From: Microcaldota archaeon
GTDB taxonomy: Archaea; Micrarchaeota; Micrarchaeia; Micrarchaeales; Micrarchaeaceae
Direction: 5' to 3'
NCBI GenBank assembly: GCA_021828345.1
Contig: JAJZJI010000023.1
Span: 1-14,923 of the forward strand
DNA: 14,923 bases
The notes under the pieces are model-generated. The model had not been told where the DNA came from, ran no database searches, and worked only from the letters and a program-made list of their open reading frames with translations. Below, piece by piece: positions 3,268 to 11,745 of the stretch. The translations under genes and the position numbers were made by a program. Positions within the stretch are counted from its first letter, which is position 1; the number at the start of each line of letters is the position of its first letter.

Positions 3268-4782
3268 ATGATGTTAGATAAACCTACCTTTATGGATAAA
3301 AAAATAAGGGAATTTCCAAAGTCCTTTAAATGGCTAAATACTAAAAAACAAATAGATATAGGTATGCTTAAAGGGCAGATTGTTATATTAGATTTTTGGA
3401 CGTATTGCTGTATAAATTGTGTTCATATGGCTCAAACACTAAATTATGTGGATGAGCGTTATAAGAACAAACCTGTTGTTATAATAGGCATTCATTCGGC
3501 AAAGTATGCTAATGAAAAAAATCCATCAAATATTGCGGATGCAATAAATAGATATGGCATTGTGCATCCTGTGATAGTTGATGAAAACATGCATTTATGG
3601 AAGGAATATGGTATACATGCTTGGCCTACGCTTGTTTTCTTAGGGCCAGATGGCACAATACTACATAAGGCTGCTGGAGAAATTTCAAATGAATCTTTAT
3701 CTGAAATAATAGATGATCTTTTAGATAGGTATACAAATGAAAAACTTCTTTCAAAAAAACGTGCTGATATATATCTTCAATATAAAAGCGATGATGAAGA
3801 GAAAAATCAATTAAGGTACCCTGGAAAAATAGCTATATCTGAAAATGGGAAACTTATTGCCATTAGTGATACTTCAAACAATAGGGTGCTTATTTTAGAT
3901 CGCAGTGATAATCGCGTTATGGATACAATAGGGTGTGGGTATGGTGGATTTTTAGATGGCAATTTTGATAATTCACGACTTTTAAAACCTCAAGGTGTAT
4001 TTTTTAGAAAAAATATTTTGTATATAGCTGATACGGGTAATCATTCCATAAGAGCAGCAGATATGAGAAATAGGCGCATTATCACAATCGCAGGTGACGG
4101 AGAGCGAGGCGTTCATATGAGCTTTAATAATAAATATATAGCAAAAGAGACATCATTATTATCCCCTTGGGATTTATCAATAAATGGTAAATTTCTATAT
4201 ATCGCAATGGCCGGCTTAAATCAAATATGGCGTTATGATTTTGATGATGAGACTATAATGCCTTTTGCTGGGGCAGGATATGAAAACATAGTGGACGGAG
4301 AATTAGAAAAAGCCTTGATGGCTCAGCCTAGCGGATTATTTTACGATAACGATTACATATATGTTGTAGATAGTGAGACCTCATCTGTGCGTTCAATAAA
4401 TATATCCAAAAATTTTATAAGTACAATAATAGGTGCAGGGCTTTTCATATATGGCGATAATGATGGTAAATTTAATGTAGGCAGGCTTCAGCATCCGCTT
4501 GGGATAACAAAAGCAAAAGATAAAATCTATGTGGCAGATACATATAATAATTCTATACGTTTGATAGATCTCTCTACAAAAAATATTACAACTCTAATAA
4601 AAAAAGACTCCGAGTCGCAGTGCAGATTTGAGGATAAGAATTGTGATACGCTTGGTCTTTATGAGCCATCCGATGTTAAAATATATAAGGAAATATTATA
4701 TATTGCAGATACAAATAATCATCTTATTAGGACATTTGACTTAAACAAAAGAATTTTAAATACTATTAAAATTTATTGGTGA
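3268..4782 (+). CDS. NHLRC2-like protein: thioredoxin-fold domain plus NHL-repeat beta-propeller
   Basis: This 504-residue protein has no signal peptide or membrane helix and so is predicted cytosolic. Residues about 10-155 form a thioredoxin-like domain of the TlpA/AhpC type. It includes LDFWTYCCINC (C48xxC51, with an extra C47), then VVIIGIHSAKYANEK, and WPTLVFLGPDGT with the cis-Pro. From about 180 to the end come six NHL-type blades, each with a variant of L..P.g......lyIADT.N..IR: examples are near 188-212 (ISDTSNNRV), 253-266 (YIADTGNHSIR), 415-428 (YVADTYNNSIR) and 480-493 (YIADTNNHLIR). Human NHLRC2 has the same order and the same CCINC site; its precise biochemical function is not established. 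The start is either of two adjacent ATGs (3268 or 3271), set by the leaderless promoter. The stop overlaps the ribosome site of the next gene, so the two are translationally coupled. Confidence 0.88.
   Translation: MMLDKPTFMDKKIREFPKSFKWLNTKKQIDIGMLKGQIVILDFWTYCCINCVHMAQTLNYVDERYKNKPVVIIGIHSAKYANEKNPSNIADAINRYGIVHPVIVDENMHLWKEYGIHAWPTLVFLGPDGTILHKAAGEISNESLSEIIDDLLDRYTNEKLLSKKRADIYLQYKSDDEEKNQLRYPGKIAISENGKLIAISDTSNNRVLILDRSDNRVMDTIGCGYGGFLDGNFDNSRLLKPQGVFFRKNILYIADTGNHSIRAADMRNRRIITIAGDGERGVHMSFNNKYIAKETSLLSPWDLSINGKFLYIAMAGLNQIWRYDFDDETIMPFAGAGYENIVDGELEKALMAQPSGLFYDNDYIYVVDSETSSVRSINISKNFISTIIGAGLFIYGDNDGKFNVGRLQHPLGITKAKDKIYVADTYNNSIRLIDLSTKNITTLIKKDSESQCRFEDKNCDTLGLYEPSDVKIYKEILYIADTNNHLIRTFDLNKRILNTIKIYW
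4778..4782 (+). promoter_or_regulatory. Ribosome binding site that decides the TTG start of the DUF255 gene
   Basis: GGTGA overlaps the TGA stop of the preceding gene and lies 4 nt before TTG 4787. It is 19 nt before the first in-frame ATG (4802), too far to serve that codon. This favours the TTG. Confidence 0.55.
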
Positions 4783-4786
4783 ATCA

Positions 4787-6856
4787 TTGCCAAATAAAAA
4801 TATGCTTTATAAATCAAAAAGTCCATATTTACTAGAGCATGCTAATGATCCTGTGAACTGGGGGGAATGGTCAAGCCAAACATTACTCGAAGCAAAAAAA
4901 GAGAATAAACTAATATTTATTTCTATAGGCTATTCTACGTGTCATTGGTGCCATGTAATGCAAAAAGAATCCTTTAAGGATGATGAAGTTGCAAATATAT
5001 TGAATAAATATTTTATATCTATAAAAATAGACAAGGAGGAGCGTCCTGATATAAATAATTATTACATGTCCTTATGCCAGAAACTTAACGGACATGGTGG
5101 CTGGCCGCTTACAATCATATTGCTTCCAAATCTTAGCCCACTTTTAATTACTACGTATATGCCAAAATTGAGCAATTTCCAATCTGTTGGGATGCTGTCA
5201 TATATTAAAGAGCTTTCTGATGAATGGGTTAAAAGTCCAAATAAACTTGAGAATGATGCGTATATGCTCTCAGAGCGTATATCCGCGGATTTGTCTTTAA
5301 ATACGAAAAAATCAGAAAATATAAACAAAAAAACTCTAGATACAATATACGGGTATCTTTCAGAAATGTTTGATTATGATTATGGTGGATTCGGTAACAA
5401 TATGAAATTTCCAATGCCACACTATCTTGGCTTTTTATTGCGCTACTATGATTATTCTAATGATTATGATGCGTTAAATATGGTGAAGCAGACACTATTA
5501 TATTTGCGATTTAGTGGTACGTATGATCAAATTGGTTTTGGAGTGCATCGATATTCAACAGCAAGGGATTGGCATTTGCCACACTTTGAAAAAATGCTTT
5601 ACGATCAGGCGTTAATTGGTATGATATATATTGAAACTTATCAAATTACCAAAGAACAAATTTTTTTAAATGTGGCAGAGGAGATAGCATCATGCATGTT
5701 AAATCAATTTCTTTCTGATTATGGCGCTTTTTATACTGCAATTGATGCTGATAGTGGTGGAATTGAAGGAAAATATTATACAATAACATATGATCAATTA
5801 TGTTCTGTTTTATTTGGGCAGGAGCTTGAAATATTTTCCGATGCATTTGGCGTAGAGCGCGATGGTAATTATACTAAAAGAAATGATATGCTGCCAAAAG
5901 GGAATATATTATACCAAAATATGAGTCATAAAGAACTTTCCGAGCGCTATAATCTTAAAATAACTGAAATAGTAAAAATTTTAAATGACTCAATAGTAAA
6001 GGTAAGGAGCATGCGCAATAATAATTCAACGTTGAAAATCGATAATAAGATACTATCAGATTTAAATGGACTTGCCATATCTTTTATGTCTAAATTATAT
6101 GCAGCAACGCTGAATAAAAAATATTTATCAATTGCAAGGCACAATGCCGATTTCATAATAAAAAATATGTATGATAAAGGAAATTTATTTCATGCGTACG
6201 TCGGTGAGGGATATATCGATGGATTTTTGGATGATTATGCGTTTACAATAAATGGATTTATTGATTTATACGAATCTTCCATTGATGAAAAATATCTAAG
6301 ATATGCAATAAACCTATCTGAAATTATGGTAGAAAAATTTTATGATAAAGTGGAAAATGTTTTTTATTTCAATAAAAATTTTAATGAACAGAATAAGAAA
6401 GAAAAAATATTATCTGATATTGCAACTCCTGCTGGTAATTCAATTGCTATATATGATTTGGCAAAAATATCGAGGATAACTGGAAATATAAAATATATGC
6501 AAATGGCAAATTTAGGCTTGGAATCTATAATTGGTGCTGGTAATAATTTGTTAAATTATACTGTGTTAATGAATGTGCTATTTTATCAGTTTGGCAAAAG
6601 TTATGAATTTGTAATAGCTGCAGAGAACGATGCCTTAAATAATGATGTTTATGAGGTAATAAACTGTATTAATAAAAATTTTATTCCGAATAAAATAATA
6701 CTTTTAAAGAGTAAGTATACAAATGATATCGCGGATTATATAAAAAATATGCCAACTAACTCAAATTTATCACTTTATGTCTGTAAAAATAATATGTGTG
6801 GGAAACCTGTTATTGGTATAAAGGCAATAAAGCAATATATAAACGATCTGAAATAA
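4787..6856 (+). CDS. DUF255 thioredoxin-like / alpha-toroid protein (YyaL/SPATA20 family)
   Basis: This 689-residue protein carries all the landmarks of the YyaL/SPATA20 family. They are SPYLLEHANDPVNW (12-25), the thioredoxin-like active site STCHWCHVM (C52, C55), ERPDINNYYM, GGWPLTIILLP, KFPMPHYL, the signature DQIGFGVHRYS...HLPHFEKMLYDQAL near 246-275, DADSGGIEGKYY, DGFLDDYAFTINGF, ATPAGNS, and a C-terminal YVCKNNMCGKPV. The second part should fold as an (alpha/alpha)6 toroid like glycosyl hydrolases or N-acylglucosamine epimerases. The true reaction is not established for the family. The TTG start at 4787 is favoured by the GGTGA site and gives MPNKNML, resembling the family's usual M-x-N-x-L opening; ATG 4802 would remove it. 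The gene lies 4 nt after the NHLRC2-like gene. The one departure seen is ITTYMP where relatives usually have GTYFP. Confidence 0.9.
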   Translation: MPNKNMLYKSKSPYLLEHANDPVNWGEWSSQTLLEAKKENKLIFISIGYSTCHWCHVMQKESFKDDEVANILNKYFISIKIDKEERPDINNYYMSLCQKLNGHGGWPLTIILLPNLSPLLITTYMPKLSNFQSVGMLSYIKELSDEWVKSPNKLENDAYMLSERISADLSLNTKKSENINKKTLDTIYGYLSEMFDYDYGGFGNNMKFPMPHYLGFLLRYYDYSNDYDALNMVKQTLLYLRFSGTYDQIGFGVHRYSTARDWHLPHFEKMLYDQALIGMIYIETYQITKEQIFLNVAEEIASCMLNQFLSDYGAFYTAIDADSGGIEGKYYTITYDQLCSVLFGQELEIFSDAFGVERDGNYTKRNDMLPKGNILYQNMSHKELSERYNLKITEIVKILNDSIVKVRSMRNNNSTLKIDNKILSDLNGLAISFMSKLYAATLNKKYLSIARHNADFIIKNMYDKGNLFHAYVGEGYIDGFLDDYAFTINGFIDLYESSIDEKYLRYAINLSEIMVEKFYDKVENVFYFNKNFNEQNKKEKILSDIATPAGNSIAIYDLAKISRITGNIKYMQMANLGLESIIGAGNNLLNYTVLMNVLFYQFGKSYEFVIAAENDALNNDVYEVINCINKNFIPNKIILLKSKYTNDIADYIKNMPTNSNLSLYVCKNNMCGKPVIGIKAIKQYINDLK

Positions 6857-6878: not shown

Positions 6879-6904
6879 CCTGTGTTATTGAATTGTGTGT
6901 TCTT

Positions 6905-7972
6905 ATGCAAAAAAAAGTTTTTGAGTGTTCTATTGATTACATACAGGTTATGGATGAAAATGGTAATATAGATGCTAATTTGATGCCTAAAGATGTTGAT
7001 GATAATAAAATAGTTGAGATGTATAAGTATATGCTTTTTGCAAGGAATTTAGATTCTAAAACATTAAGTTTGCAAAGGCAGGGGCGCGCAGATACGTTCG
7101 CGCCGCTTTTAGGAGAAGAGGCATCACAAATAGGCGTTGCATTTGCGATGCGCAAGGATGATTATCTTATTCCTGCCTTTAGGCAGCATGGCATTTATCT
7201 TGCGCGCGGTCTTCCAATAAAAAGCTATTTTTTATATTGGAAGGGTTATGAGGAGGGTAATGCCACTGCTAAAAGTATAAACGCGCTGCCAATAATAGTG
7301 CCAGTTGCAACACAGATGCCACATGGTGCAGGGGTTGCATTCACCCAAAAATACTTAGGGCGTGATGCTGTTGCAGTTGCCTATGTGGGAGATGGAGGTA
7401 CATCCGAAGGCGATTTTTATGAAGCGATAAACTTTGCAGGGGTAAATAAGCTTCCGTTTATAGCAATAATTGAGAATAATCAATGGGCAATATCGATACC
7501 TAGAAATAAACAGACAGCAGCAGAAACATTGGCACAAAAAGCTGTTGCGGTGGGCATAAAGGGCATACAGGTGGACGGCAACGATGTTATAGGTGTATAC
7601 AAAGTGGTGAAAGACGCAATCGATAATTCGAAAAATGGGCCTACTGTAATAGAGTGTGTGACATATAGGATGAGCATGCATACAACTGCTGATGATCCTA
7701 CAAAATATCGTTCTGATTCGGAAGTGAAAGCGTGGGCAGAGAAGGATCCATTAAAAAGGGTTAGGGCATATCTTGTAAAGAAAGGATTATGGAATGATGA
7801 TTTAGAGAAAAAGACAACAGAGGAGCAGCTTGCTCAAATAGATAAGGCTGTGGAGGAGGCCGAAACATTTAAGGCTGATCCTAAAAGCATGTTCGAGAAT
7901 ATATATAGTTTTATGCCAGAGGTATTGAAGGATGAGGAAGATAGCGCAGTAGCCGCTAATTTCTGGCAGTAG
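6905..7972 (+). CDS. pdhA: 2-oxoacid dehydrogenase complex E1 component, alpha subunit
   Basis: This is the alpha half of the thiamine-diphosphate-dependent E1 decarboxylase of a pyruvate/branched-chain 2-oxoacid dehydrogenase complex (355 residues, usual length). The cofactor motif is complete: V-GDG at 162-164, then 26 residues to the N191-N192 pair (IIENNQWAIS). Other family landmarks are RQGRADTFAPLLGEEA (58-73), FRQHG (92-96), PHGAGVAF (139-146), and the loop YRMSMHTTADDPTKYR (254-269). That loop matches the branched-chain type (HxTxDD) better than the pyruvate type. The frame extends to a TTG at 6893 but ATG 6905 is preferred as the only ATG near the family start. The related Thermoplasma acidophilum complex has been reported active on branched-chain 2-oxoacids; the symbol is a family label, not a substrate claim. 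It is first in an eight-gene run, and E1beta begins 8 nt downstream. Confidence 0.93.
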   Translation: MQKKVFECSIDYIQVMDENGNIDANLMPKDVDDNKIVEMYKYMLFARNLDSKTLSLQRQGRADTFAPLLGEEASQIGVAFAMRKDDYLIPAFRQHGIYLARGLPIKSYFLYWKGYEEGNATAKSINALPIIVPVATQMPHGAGVAFTQKYLGRDAVAVAYVGDGGTSEGDFYEAINFAGVNKLPFIAIIENNQWAISIPRNKQTAAETLAQKAVAVGIKGIQVDGNDVIGVYKVVKDAIDNSKNGPTVIECVTYRMSMHTTADDPTKYRSDSEVKAWAEKDPLKRVRAYLVKKGLWNDDLEKKTTEEQLAQIDKAVEEAETFKADPKSMFENIYSFMPEVLKDEEDSAVAANFWQ

Positions 7973-7980: not shown

Positions 7981-8946
7981 ATGAACGTTAATATGGTATC
8001 TGCATTGAATAATGCATTAGAACTAAGTATGAGGGCTGATGATAAGATAGTGCTTCTAGGCGAGGACATAGCAAAAGACGGAGGCGTGTTTAGGGTAACA
8101 GATGGACTACTAGATAAATTTGGAGAAAAACGTGTTTTAGATACGCCACTTGCAGAATCGAGCATAATAGGCACTTCAATAGGTATGGCAATATCTGGTT
8201 TAAGGCCAGTTCCAGAGATACAATTTGCGGGTTTTATGCTGTTAGGTTTTAGTCAACTATTAAATCACGCTGCCAGATTTAGAAGCAGAACACGTTCAAC
8301 AATGAATGTGCCTATGGTTGTTAGAACTCCGGTCAGTGGCGGTGTTAAAACATTGGAGCATCATTCAGATAGCCCAGAGGCTTATTACTCGCACATAGGT
8401 GGACTTATTGTAGTTGAGCCATCAAATCCGTATGATGCAAAGGGTCTTATGATGAAGGCATTAAAAATGCAGGATCCTGTTATATTTTTGGAGCCTACAA
8501 AATTATACAGACTATTTAAGCAGGAGATACCAGAGGGTGCATATGAGGTGCCTATTGGCAAAGCCAATTATTTAAAGAAGGGCGATAATCTAACGATAAT
8601 AACATATGGCACAATGGTACCAATAGTAAATAGTGTTGTCGAAAAGAAGAATTTATCTGCAGATGTGATAGATTTGCGTACAATAAATCCTATAGATGAG
8701 ACAACTATATTAGAGAGCGCAAAGAAAACGGGAAAGGTGTTAATAGTGCATGAAGCATCGCTTAGTTTTGGGGTAGGCGCTGAGATAGCCGCGCGCATAG
8801 CAGAAAAAGCAATGTTCGAACTATCCGCTCCTATAATGCGCGTGGGTTCAGCAAGTCTTCCATATCCAATGCCTGGATATGAAAAATATTATATACCAAA
8901 CGAGAGAAAGGTTTCTGATGCTATAGATAAGCTCTTATCTGCATAG
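7981..8946 (+). CDS. pdhB: 2-oxoacid dehydrogenase complex E1 component, beta subunit
   Basis: This is the beta half of the E1 heterotetramer (321 residues), completing the thiamine-diphosphate site at the alpha/beta interface. The N-terminal pyrimidine-binding domain contains LLGEDIAKDGGVFRVT (25-40) and DTPLAESSIIGTSIGMA (54-70), where E59 is the family's cofactor-activating glutamate. RTPVSGG (115-121) and LEHHSDSPEAYYSHIGGL (125-142) follow, with the conserved active-site histidines 127/128. The C-terminal transketolase-like domain (about 190-321) includes TIITYGTMV, DLRTINPID, VHEA and PYPMPGYEKYYIPN. The domain order and length are normal. The start is the first ATG and has a well-placed AGGTG. 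E2 follows after 8 nt (or overlaps by one base if its GTG were used). Confidence 0.94.
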   Translation: MNVNMVSALNNALELSMRADDKIVLLGEDIAKDGGVFRVTDGLLDKFGEKRVLDTPLAESSIIGTSIGMAISGLRPVPEIQFAGFMLLGFSQLLNHAARFRSRTRSTMNVPMVVRTPVSGGVKTLEHHSDSPEAYYSHIGGLIVVEPSNPYDAKGLMMKALKMQDPVIFLEPTKLYRLFKQEIPEGAYEVPIGKANYLKKGDNLTIITYGTMVPIVNSVVEKKNLSADVIDLRTINPIDETTILESAKKTGKVLIVHEASLSFGVGAEIAARIAEKAMFELSAPIMRVGSASLPYPMPGYEKYYIPNERKVSDAIDKLLSA

Positions 8947-8954
8947 TGGTAGGG

Positions 8955-10193
8955 ATGAAAGAATTAAAATTTGTGGATGTCGGAGAAGGAATAACGGAGG
9001 GTAACATACATAAATGGCTAGTTAAAGATAATGATGATGTAAAAGAGGATCAGCCAGTTGTAGAAATCGAGACTGATAAGGCTGTAGTGAATATACCCGC
9101 TCCAATATCTGGAAAGATAAAAATAATTTCAAAACCGGGTCCAGTGAAGGTTGGAGATATGCTTGCATATTTTGGAACGGAAGAGGAGTTAAAAGGTGCT
9201 ATAAAATTAGGTGCATCAAATATAAGTGTAAGAGATGATCAGAAGAATAAATTAACAGTGCCTGCAAAAGTTGCCACTATAGAACCAAAGCATAATGAAC
9301 TTACAAAGGAAGTGCTTGCAACACCTTCGGTGCGTAAATTGGCACATGAACTTAATATTGATTTGAATACCGTTTTAGGTACAGGGCCTAATGGTAGGAT
9401 CATGGAGAATGATGTAAGGGCGCATGCGCGAAGCAGTGCTCCAATCCATACAGTACCTATATATTCTGAGGCTAAGGAGGAATCTCATAAGGATCGAATT
9501 GAGCGTGTTTCCATGTCACAGGTGAGAAAGGCAATAGCAAAGAATATGGAGCTCTCATGGACCATACCTACAGCGGTGCATATGGATAAGATAGACGCTA
9601 CATATCTTGCAAAAGTATTGGAAAAGGAAAAGCCCAAATTTGCAAAGAAGAATGTTAAGCTAACATTTTTGCCATTTATAATAAAGGCAGTAGTAGATGC
9701 TTTAAAAGAGAATGAGCGCTTCAATTCCAGTTATGATAAGGAGAAACAGGAGATAATATTAAAACGCTACTACAACATAGGACTTGCAGTAGAGGCTGAT
9801 GATGGACTTCGCGTTGCGGTCATAAAGGATGCGGATAAAAAAAGTATTACAAAGATAGCAAAGGAGATAGTGGAGCTTGCTGAAAAGGTGCGCAATAAAA
9901 CTATAAGTATAGACGAGATGAGCGATAGTACGTTTACAATAACTAATATAGGTAGCTTAGGTGGAGGATATCTATCTGTACCTATGATAAATTATCCGGA
10001 TGTGGCAATACTTGGAATACATCTTATAAAGGATGTGCCAATGGTTAAGGATAATCAGATAGTTATAGGAAAAGAACTGCCTTTCTCATTGACATTCGAT
10101 CATAGAGTTGTGGATGGTGCAGAAGCTGTGAGATTTGGTAATCTTATAAAGGAGTATATTGAAGATCCTGAATTTTTGGAGCTCTCAGATTGA
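8955..10193 (+). CDS. pdhC: 2-oxoacid dehydrogenase complex E2, dihydrolipoyl acyltransferase
   Basis: This is the core acyltransferase (412 residues from ATG 8955), which carries the acyl group on a lipoyl arm and passes it to CoA. One lipoyl domain spans about 1-76, with the lipoylated lysine K42 in ETDKAVVNIPAP. A peripheral-subunit-binding domain lies at about 121-157 (ATPSVRKLAHELNIDL, GTGPNGRIMENDV). The catalytic domain runs from about 183 to 412, with the FDHRVVDGA motif placing catalytic H383 and D387. The linkers are short and charged rather than Ala/Pro-rich as in many bacterial E2s. A GTG at 8946 would add three residues (MVG), but the family normally opens with the lipoyl strand KELKFVDVGEG, so the ATG is chosen. 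Lipoylation needs a ligase that is not encoded in this window. The gene ends 5 nt before the Cys-rich peptide. Confidence 0.94.
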   Translation: MKELKFVDVGEGITEGNIHKWLVKDNDDVKEDQPVVEIETDKAVVNIPAPISGKIKIISKPGPVKVGDMLAYFGTEEELKGAIKLGASNISVRDDQKNKLTVPAKVATIEPKHNELTKEVLATPSVRKLAHELNIDLNTVLGTGPNGRIMENDVRAHARSSAPIHTVPIYSEAKEESHKDRIERVSMSQVRKAIAKNMELSWTIPTAVHMDKIDATYLAKVLEKEKPKFAKKNVKLTFLPFIIKAVVDALKENERFNSSYDKEKQEIILKRYYNIGLAVEADDGLRVAVIKDADKKSITKIAKEIVELAEKVRNKTISIDEMSDSTFTITNIGSLGGGYLSVPMINYPDVAILGIHLIKDVPMVKDNQIVIGKELPFSLTFDHRVVDGAEAVRFGNLIKEYIEDPEFLELSD

Positions 10194-10198
10194 TTTTT

Positions 10199-10354
10199 AT
10201 GGCTAATCAAGGTGCAGGTCAAGGGTGCGAATGCGGCGGTGGATGCATTTGCGGATGCAGAAATGGATGCAATTGCGCTGTTCATTGCAAATGCGGCTGC
10301 ACGTGCGCCGAGCGGAGAATGCAAACAAATAATGAAGATGATGATTTAAAATAA
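10199..10354 (+). CDS. Metallothionein-like Cys-rich peptide (51 aa) inside the dehydrogenase operon
   Basis: This short gene lies in the gap between E2 and E3. The frame starts at ATG 10199, 5 nt after the E2 stop, and ends with TAA 17 nt before E3. The product has 51 residues with 11 cysteines at 10, 12, 16, 18, 20, 24, 26, 30, 32, 34 and 36, plus H29, and no long hydrophobic stretch. The order is CxCx3CxCxCx3CxCx3CxCxCxC, followed by a charged tail (CAERRMQTNNEDDDLK). CxC-dense peptides of this size bind clusters of Zn, Cd, Cu(I) or As(III) through thiolates, as metallothioneins do; I cannot place it in a named family. All cysteine codons are TGC, and the gene is visibly richer in G+C than its neighbours. 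A role as metal or arsenite buffer, or metal chaperone, for the operon is inference. It could instead be a small structural Zn or Fe protein. No strong ribosome site is seen (TGAT just upstream at most). Confidence 0.78.
   Translation: MANQGAGQGCECGGGCICGCRNGCNCAVHCKCGCTCAERRMQTNNEDDDLK
10241..10276 (+). repeat. Three imperfect 12-nt tandem units coding the CxC core
   Basis: Units at 10241-10252, 10253-10264 and 10265-10276 all begin GGATGCA (second half ttTGC-, gaaat-, atTGC-like) and encode G-C-I-C, G-C-R-N and G-C-N-C. The register matches the reading frame. This suggests the Cys-rich core grew by duplication of a four-residue unit, with one copy having lost its second Cys. Confidence 0.6.
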
Positions 10355-10371: not shown

Positions 10372-11745
10372 ATGGTTATGGGTTCTATACCTGAGAATGT
10401 TGACGTTGCTATAATAGGAGGCGGTGTGGGGGGCTATATAGCTGCGATACGCGCAGCACAGCTTGGTAAGAGCGTTGCTTTAATAGAAAAGCACAAATTG
10501 GGAGGTCACTGTTTAAATTATGCATGTATACCCTCAAAGACGTTAATACACATATCTGACATATATGATAGTATAAAAGAGTCTTCAAAATTTGGAATAA
10601 GTGTAAATGGTCTTGCAATAGACGCCAAAAAAATGTATGAATGGCGCGTTTTTGTTTCAAAGAAGTTGGAGCAGGGCGTTGCGTTTCTATGCAAATCAAA
10701 TAATATTGATGTATTTAGTGCTGAAGCAACATTTTTATCATCAAATAAACTGCAGTTAACTGATGGGATTGAAATAGATTTTAAAAAAGCAATAATTGCA
10801 ACAGGTTCAGAGCCAATATCATTAAAGGGGTTTGAGTATTCAGATAAAATAATAGACTACAAAAAAGCATTGTTATTAGATTACATACCGAAAAATATGG
10901 CAATTATAGGTGCGGGATATGTTGCGGTTGAGATCGGAATAATGTATGCAAAATTAGGTTCAAACGTCTCAATAATTGCACGCTCTGATATACTCTCGCG
11001 ATTTGACCCAGAAGCTGTTGCGTATGTAAAGAAAAGAATGGAATCTTTAAATATAAAAATATACAAAAAATCAAATCCTCTTAGTTTTGATGCAAATATT
11101 TTAAAGCTTGATAGCAATGAAAATATATTGGCTGACATACTTGTTGTTGCAGTAGGTTTATCGCCATATACAAGTGGTTTAGGGCTCTCTAATACACATA
11201 TAAAGTTGGATGATAAGGGATTTATAATTACAGATAAAACAATGCTCACAAGCGATGAAAATATATACGCAATAGGCGATGTTGCTGGAGAGCCAATGCT
11301 TGCTCATAAGGCAATGCGTCAGGGCGTGGTTGCAGGTGAAGCTGCGTCTGGCATCTCATCTAGCTATGAGAATATTGTCGTGCCTGCCGTAATATTTTCT
11401 GATCCCGAGATAGCAATAGCTGGGAGGCTTGATGGTGATGGAATAATGACTACAAAATTTCCACTTAGTGCTCTAGGCAGGGCAATTGCACTTGATAGTA
11501 CTAATGGGTTTGTTAAAATAGCATATACCAAGGATAAAATAGTAAAGGGAGTGGAGATAGTTTCAAGAGATGCGAATGCTATGATAAGTGAGGCGGCACT
11601 TGCTATTGAGATGGGAGCTACGCTTGAGGATATCGCAGATACGATTCATCCGCATCCTACATTTAGCGAATCTATAATGGAGGCTGCAGAAAGCGCTCTG
11701 GGTCGCGGTATACACTTTTTTGATTCAACAAAAGTCAAAAAATGA
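10372..11745 (+). CDS. lpdA: Dihydrolipoyl dehydrogenase (E3)
   Basis: This FAD/NAD disulfide oxidoreductase (457 residues) re-oxidises the dihydrolipoyl arm of E2 and makes NADH. Sequence marks are the FAD Rossmann motif AIIGGGVGGYIAA (13-25), the redox disulfide in GGHCLNYACIPSK (C44 and C49, four residues apart as usual), ATGSEP (144-149), and the NAD-binding motif IGAGYVAVEIG (179-189). The second FAD motif is YAIGDVAGEPMLAHKA (near 301-316), and the C-terminal active-site pair from the partner subunit is HPHPTFSE (near 431-438). All parts of a working class I oxidoreductase are present, so it should be active as a homodimer. It follows the Cys-rich peptide gene. Mercuric reductase is a related alternative, but the dehydrogenase context and lack of a metal-binding N-terminal domain argue for E3. 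Confidence 0.93.
   Translation: MVMGSIPENVDVAIIGGGVGGYIAAIRAAQLGKSVALIEKHKLGGHCLNYACIPSKTLIHISDIYDSIKESSKFGISVNGLAIDAKKMYEWRVFVSKKLEQGVAFLCKSNNIDVFSAEATFLSSNKLQLTDGIEIDFKKAIIATGSEPISLKGFEYSDKIIDYKKALLLDYIPKNMAIIGAGYVAVEIGIMYAKLGSNVSIIARSDILSRFDPEAVAYVKKRMESLNIKIYKKSNPLSFDANILKLDSNENILADILVVAVGLSPYTSGLGLSNTHIKLDDKGFIITDKTMLTSDENIYAIGDVAGEPMLAHKAMRQGVVAGEAASGISSSYENIVVPAVIFSDPEIAIAGRLDGDGIMTTKFPLSALGRAIALDSTNGFVKIAYTKDKIVKGVEIVSRDANAMISEAALAIEMGATLEDIADTIHPHPTFSESIMEAAESALGRGIHFFDSTKVKK

Follow-up and report, generated by a model that had tools for sequence, protein, structure and literature searches.

A conserved eleven-cysteine, metallothionein-like peptide family in one order of Micrarchaeota

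The peptide gene and its surroundings in the window

The window, by which we mean the whole 14,923-nucleotide stretch of DNA that was analysed, carries a 2-oxoacid dehydrogenase operon in which a small cysteine-rich frame lies between the E2 and E3 genes. The relevant features are as follows.

6893..7972, plus strand: E1-alpha component (Pfam domains)
7981..8946, plus strand: E1-beta component (Pfam domains Transket_pyr and Transketolase_C)
8946..10193, plus strand: E2, lipoyl/acyltransferase component (Pfam domains; the listed frame starts with GTG)
10199..10354, plus strand: peptide of 51 residues with 11 cysteines in a CxC array, from a Micrarchaeota family without a name (frame list, translation and family alignment)
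10372..11745, plus strand: E3, dihydrolipoyl dehydrogenase-type flavoprotein (Pfam domains)

An earlier note, made from the sequence alone, had described this 51-codon frame, and translation and frame coordinates confirm it: 51 residues and a stop codon, with 11 cysteines in CxC units, begin 5 nt after the end of E2 (10193) and end 17 nt before the start of E3 (10372). Cysteine accounts for 22% of the residues, and phenylalanine, tryptophan and tyrosine are absent. Neither the 11-cysteine pattern nor any open frame with at least 11 cysteines per 40 residues occurred in 300 versions of the window simulated under a first-order Markov model. Rfam matched no structured RNA in the window at gathering thresholds. 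The genome from which the window derives (77% complete) contains one match to the peptide.

Upstream of E1, and on the same strand, positions 3268-4782 and 4787-6856 encode two thioredoxin-fold proteins, which Pfam resolves into a thioredoxin-like protein with NHL repeats and Thioredox_DsbH. A relative of the NHL-repeat protein also adjoins E1-alpha in genome G123.

Members, distribution and conservation of the family

Profile searches identified a core family of 39 loci (E <= 5.4e-18) in 37 of the 164 genomes in the window's order, many of which are incomplete drafts. A search of the same 164 genomes gave matches in 54 at E <= 1. When a profile of 33 members was run against 301 genomes of the phylum, 44 genomes were matched at E <= 0.01, and every strong match fell inside the order. 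Seven weak matches (E 3.8e-4 to 0.0078), of which three come from genomes beyond the order, were attributed to chance. A species-wide scan (84,980 genomes, one per species) found 11 loci in 10 MAGs; the titles of nine read Micrarchaeota, and those of the other two, both in one MAG, read 'bacterium'. The relatives that carry a name are thus Micrarchaeota, and not the Thermoplasmatales in which the earlier note had proposed to look, and the window itself very probably derives from a Micrarchaeon. Two profile searches of 5.8 billion proteins yielded eight clusters at E <= 1 and nine at E <= 10. Eight of the nine are of the 11-cysteine type and the ninth (P0010) belongs to a 12-cysteine side group; an organism name is attached to one of them, and it is Micrarchaeota.

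The consensus of the 33-sequence alignment is MANQGAGGGCECGGxCxCGCxxGCxCKxxCxCGCTCGERR. All 11 cysteine columns are invariant, and the CxC arrays are conserved across relatives, while the spacer residues between the cysteines vary. Further invariant residues are N3, Q4, G7, E11, G13, G14, G19 and R39; the latter follows the last cysteine and is itself adjacent to a residue that is mostly Arg or Lys. Neither a conserved histidine nor CC or CxxC pairs are present in the array. Some relatives contain aromatic residues, either F or Y between cysteines, or Y or W in the tail. At the DNA level, 11 of 11 cysteine codons are TGC or TGT in 39 of 39 loci; the script used for this count searched for the cysteine pattern itself, matched all 39 loci, and left out the diverged L069 and L070.

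No named metallothionein family was matched above curated cut-offs when the 33 members were compared with Pfam and NCBIfam. In Pfam, seven of the 33 touch Metallothio_5 (best E 0.97), and the best NCBIfam value (E 3.7) is to a bacteriocin precursor model. The PDB holds no significant relative: its only match is a conotoxin, at E 0.27 in the profile search and at 7.3 when the peptide was used by itself. A virus-encoded origin was also considered and found no support: the 33 members matched no PHROGs family at E up to 1, and none of 113 stretches fitting the pattern in a scan of viral contigs codes for a relative. Two members are diverged, those of G123 (E 8.7e-6 in the phylum profile search) and G013 (E 0.001 in the order search, unlisted in the phylum search).

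Selection and codon usage

The ratio of non-synonymous to synonymous change was estimated by NG86 on 16 chosen pairs over 40 codons. Values of dN/dS were at most 0.12 in 11 pairs and 0.14, 0.19 and 0.20 in three others, and two pairs gave no dS estimate; dN ranged from 0 to 0.23 and dS from 0.04 to 2.9. In 15 of the 16 pairs, synonymous codon differences are the more numerous; the exception is L050-L049, with 9 synonymous versus 11 non-synonymous. The peptide is under purifying selection. Such a comparison, with attention to the cysteine positions, had been proposed in the earlier note. On the grounds of invariant cysteines, codon conservation, dN/dS and the Markov simulations, a chance frame was rejected; the peptide frame is a real gene of a conserved family.

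Family-wide, 380 of 429 cysteine codons are TGC, where codon usage in other frames of these loci would predict about 333; a Fisher test on the pooled counts, which ignores kinship among the sequences, gives a p of 1e-7. The peptide of the window uses TGC for all 11 cysteines, versus 16 of 37 in neighbouring frames of at least 200 residues. A TGC preference above the local level may hint at strong translation, and so at an abundant protein. The non-cysteine third positions of the window's peptide are AT-rich (GC3 0.225), as is the window, and the gene therefore does not have the look of a recent GC-rich import.

Survey of E2-E3 junctions

E3 was found in 133 of the 164 genomes at E <= 1e-60. 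The DNA upstream was read for 130 of the 136 matches listed, those excluded being G076 (contig start), G026, G126, G104 and G151 (N-terminally partial) and the second fragment of G084. At 74 of the 130 loci, E2 and E3 are separated by at most 35 nt without a peptide, and at six by 36-200 nt, again without a peptide. Gaps larger than 200 nt, with other frames inside, were found at 29 loci, and at 16 E2 is absent from the stretch read, which in some cases is ended by a contig end. The peptide lies beside E3 at five distinct loci (six rows, since L053 and L106 represent one locus, which is counted once). Three of these, in the window, G006 and G007, have the order E2-peptide-E3. The peptide of G143 is separated from E3 by a frame that by eye looks deacetylase-like, and the one in G034 is oriented divergently to E3. 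Subtracting from the 130 loci the 16 without E2, as well as G143 and G034, in which the peptide is beside E3 and no E2 is upstream, leaves 112 junctions. The peptide is present in three, 80 have a gap of at most 200 nt without it, and 29 have a larger gap.

The gaps of relatives had been named in the earlier note as the place to look for the peptide, and absence of the frame from close relatives that retain the gap as evidence against its proposal. This refuting outcome was found: G008, a congener of G006 and G007, has an E2-E3 gap of 14 nt and no peptide. Retention of the gene with E2 and E3 in relatives, as expected of a component of the complex, was seen at only three of the 112 junctions. 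The window's genus includes one further genome, G105 (55% complete), in which neither the peptide nor E3 was matched and which counts for neither side.

Frames in the large gaps were named by eye and include a HAD hydrolase, a short-chain dehydrogenase, a pyridoxamine-oxidase-like protein, a deaminase, a YdjC-like protein and others; examples are L083, L091, L100, L129 and L191. With other frames in 29 of 112 junctions and the peptide in three, the E2-E3 junction looks like a permissive place for gene insertion.

Genomic placement of the peptide gene

Flanks of up to about 7.5 kb per side, less at contig ends, were read around the peptide. E1, E2 and E3 are absent from the flanks of 33 of the 39 core loci, and operon genes occur near the peptide in six, the window included. 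When the remaining 12 protein genes of the window were compared with 40 stretches (L031-L070), E1, E2 or E3 were present in six: L049, L053, L043, L061, L050 and L070, the last of which holds a diverged member. The peptide of G010 lies 2 kb after E2, and the diverged member of G123 about 7.7 kb from a piece of E1-alpha. By an informal estimate, six of 39 placements near 2-oxoacid dehydrogenase genes exceed random expectation in genomes of about 0.9 Mb. Since three further loci lie near E1, E2 or E3, a weak association with the operon persists.

These placements are not all independent, as indicated by a common peptide tail and by the grouping of E3. The tail RGKxxWE is shared by the peptides of G006, G007, G010 (contig 22) and G143. 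A tree built from 32 of the 130 E3 loci, and viewed without branch support, groups the E3 of G143 with those of G006 and G007, though G143 is filed in another family, which suggests gene transfer or mis-binning. The E3 of the window groups away from these three genomes, so that its peptide placement looks separate. The tree departs from the two families of the order in another respect: the E3 sequences of G006, G007 and G075 (f2) fall among f1 sequences, suggesting gene transfer or mis-binning.

The peptide gene has no fixed neighbourhood and its placement is scattered. Loci linked automatically through flanking proteins up to 2.5 kb away fell into 11 groups, a lower bound in which 21 loci are chained through common protein families; about 16 were distinguished by hand. 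According to mechanical gene calls, 20 of the 39 copies follow a same-strand frame of 100 or more residues at a distance of at most 40 nt. The placement counts, like the codon counts, exclude the diverged L069 and L070.

Twenty-five chosen flanking proteins were run against Pfam (E <= 1e-5). The names obtained were SIMPL, phosphodiesterase, Rieske, MscL, eRF1 domains, HD, EamA, UbiA, PheS-type synthetase, HAD, TFIIB, parvulin-type rotamase, HerA domain, trypsin-PDZ, amidohydrolase, isocitrate dehydrogenase, PD-(D/E)XK nuclease, alpha/beta hydrolase and DUF3830, and six proteins had no match. No known family of metal regulators or metal efflux proteins was found by Pfam among the 25. One frame was called aconitase-like by eye. 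An LplA-like identity assigned by eye to the frame that precedes the peptide in L043 was dropped, as Pfam gave no match. For the Micrarchaeon Mia14, a published description (PMC5498576) places genes for E1 subunits of 2-oxoacid dehydrogenase in a genomic island, which fits a variable, gene-collecting region.

Metal-handling genes in the order

Two common metal-handling families are rare in the order. The HMA domain was found in one of 164 genomes, versus 13 of 14 controls, and Cation_efflux in 10 of 164, versus 14 of 14 controls. Metal export is not absent, since P-type ATPases (PF00122) occur in 124 of the 164 genomes. Metallochaperones of TRASH/YHS-like type are reported from the relative Mia14 (PMC5498576), and a habitat of metal-rich acid is adopted here from PMC8407392.

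Function of the peptide

The window's peptide fits the usual description of a metallothionein: it is small, cysteine-rich (51 residues, 22%) and free of aromatic residues. The cysteine content of metallothioneins is about 15-35%. The thiol array, the lack of a conserved histidine and the lack of CxxC finger spacing point to thiolate binding of a d10 metal or As(III). We consider that the peptide is probably a stand-alone metallothionein-like protein of one Micrarchaeota order, predicted to act as a cytosolic thiolate buffer. With its 11 thiols in C-x-C units it would enclose soft metal ions, be they Cu(I), Zn, Cd, Hg or As(III), within a thiolate cluster. Such a cluster would buffer metal in the cytosol, and the host cells probably inhabit acidic waters rich in metals. 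Roughly half of the copies, being directly behind a same-strand gene, are probably co-transcribed with it, and the others stand apart. The copy of the window would ride on the 2-oxoacid dehydrogenase operon, at a junction that holds other genes in many relatives. From the invariance of the cysteines beside variable spacers, the low dN/dS, the cysteine content, the scattered placement, the rarity of HMA and Cation_efflux in the order and the TGC preference we infer a buffering role. Several observations run against it. N3, Q4, G7 and R39 are as invariant as the cysteines, and a plain metal sponge needs none of them; the peptide is found in only 37 of 164 genomes, many of them incomplete drafts; the 25 flanking proteins include no known metal regulator or efflux family; P-type ATPases are widespread in the order and Mia14 is reported to have metallochaperones of another type; and the matches to Metallothio_5 and to the conotoxin are not significant.

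The earlier note had suggested that the peptide may shield the E2 arm or E3. Its conserved, metallothionein-like gene stands, and the role in the complex is not supported. If the peptide were devoted to the 2-oxoacid dehydrogenase, as an accessory or shield that captures As(III), Cd or Cu close to the lipoyl arm or to E3, this would account for the tight spacing in the window, for the same gene order in G006 and G007 and for the near-operon copies in G143, G034, G010 and, in diverged form, G123. We regard such a role as very improbable, given that the peptide occupies three of 112 junctions (80 gaps of at most 200 nt lack it and 29 hold other frames), that E3 is present in 133 genomes versus 37 for the peptide, that 33 of 39 loci have no E1, E2 or E3 in the flanks read, and that G008 keeps its 14-nt gap without the peptide in the very genus of G006 and G007. 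The E2-E3 survey led us to reject membership in the complex as the general reading; a function tied to the operon finds no support as a rule across the family. A metallochaperone that would dock to a partner, be it a P-type ATPase or some metalloenzyme, through its M-x-N-Q-x-x-G head and arginine, and pass Cu(I) or Zn on to it, with the thiols as carrier and not as store, is unlikely, and yet has more to recommend it. Buffering does not explain the invariant head and arginine, which lends this reading some weight; the conserved non-cysteine residues are at both ends of the peptide, and with P-type ATPases in 124 of 164 genomes and HMA almost absent, delivery would need another carrier. Against it, 11 thiols exceed the need of a one-ion carrier, no fixed partner gene adjoins the peptide, and the ATPase is found in 124 genomes versus 37.

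The arginine after the last cysteine, mostly followed by Arg or Lys, might also belong to a regulator or structural zinc protein that is folded by metal and binds nucleic acid or protein through a basic tail. Such a protein is hardly to be expected here, as zinc-ribbon or finger spacing of the CxxC type is missing and Pfam, NCBIfam and the PDB gave no significant relative. Besides the stand-alone buffer, a broader reading is possible, if rather doubtful: a hitherto undescribed archaeal metallothionein family that both stores and delivers soft metal, docks a partner through its conserved ends and serves genome-reduced hosts of metal-rich acid that are largely without HMA and Cation_efflux. By moving between operons, the gene would stay expressed without a regulator of its own.

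Comparison with known systems

Like vertebrate, yeast, plant and cyanobacterial metallothioneins, the peptide of the window is small and cysteine-rich (22%), has CxC arrays and lacks aromatic residues. The alpha domain of mammalian metallothionein has 11 cysteines, as does the peptide. PMC11273490 gives this domain four metal sites. In contrast to metallothioneins, the peptide is archaeal, carries the invariant N3, Q4, G7 and R39, has no CC or CxxC pairs, and shows no significant sequence match to them (best Metallothio_5, E 0.97). Bacterial SmtA/NmtA metallothioneins, of about 50-60 residues, are similarly prokaryotic, thiol-rich and close in size. However, the 33 members matched none of the prokaryotic metallothionein models in Pfam or NCBIfam at E up to 10, the peptide has no conserved histidine, and no SmtB/ArsR-type match was found among the 25 chosen neighbours.

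The copper fitness islands of Thermoplasmatales and Micrarchaeon Mia14 resemble the present case in comprising metal genes in the same kind of organism, and are described as a highly mobile gene set (PMC5498576). In that description their metallochaperone is TRASH/YHS-like and adjoins a P-type ATPase, whereas the peptide has no significant Pfam match and no P-type ATPase is among the 25 neighbours tested.

Among the openly licensed papers listed in our searches, none dealt with the peptide family or with a characterised archaeal metallothionein. Thermococcus gammatolerans is said to have no genes for such chelators (PMC3407056). The family is real, conserved and metallothionein-like in make, and has no description in the literature searched, within which an 11-cysteine family conserved in mostly uncultivated acidophilic archaea would extend the metallothionein kind to archaea. 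The peptide is small and easy to make, and so open to direct testing. The case also illustrates that a tight operon position read from a single genome can mislead on function.

Atypical copies

The 12-cysteine side group consists of G013 and P0010. These proteins (L069:7797-7979, minus strand, and P0010) have the head MVxDEANxECEC and an acidic tail. The copy of G049 (L056:7314-7451, minus strand) has ATA at the start position, versus ATG, GTG or TTG at the other 38 loci, and is otherwise identical to that of G051 over the first 45 residues; its start is either non-standard or lost. In G033 (L040:2363-2509), an in-frame TAA lies between two cysteines of the array, and the copy is either decaying or the product of an assembly error. 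Two peptide copies each are present in G030 (L057, L063) and G010 (L044, L050). Those of G010 have different surroundings; those of G030 have like surroundings and are possibly two strains in one bin. L064 and L065 come from genomes filed in two genera (G025 and G057), and yet their two closest flanking proteins share 97-99% identity, which reflects either transfer or mis-binning.
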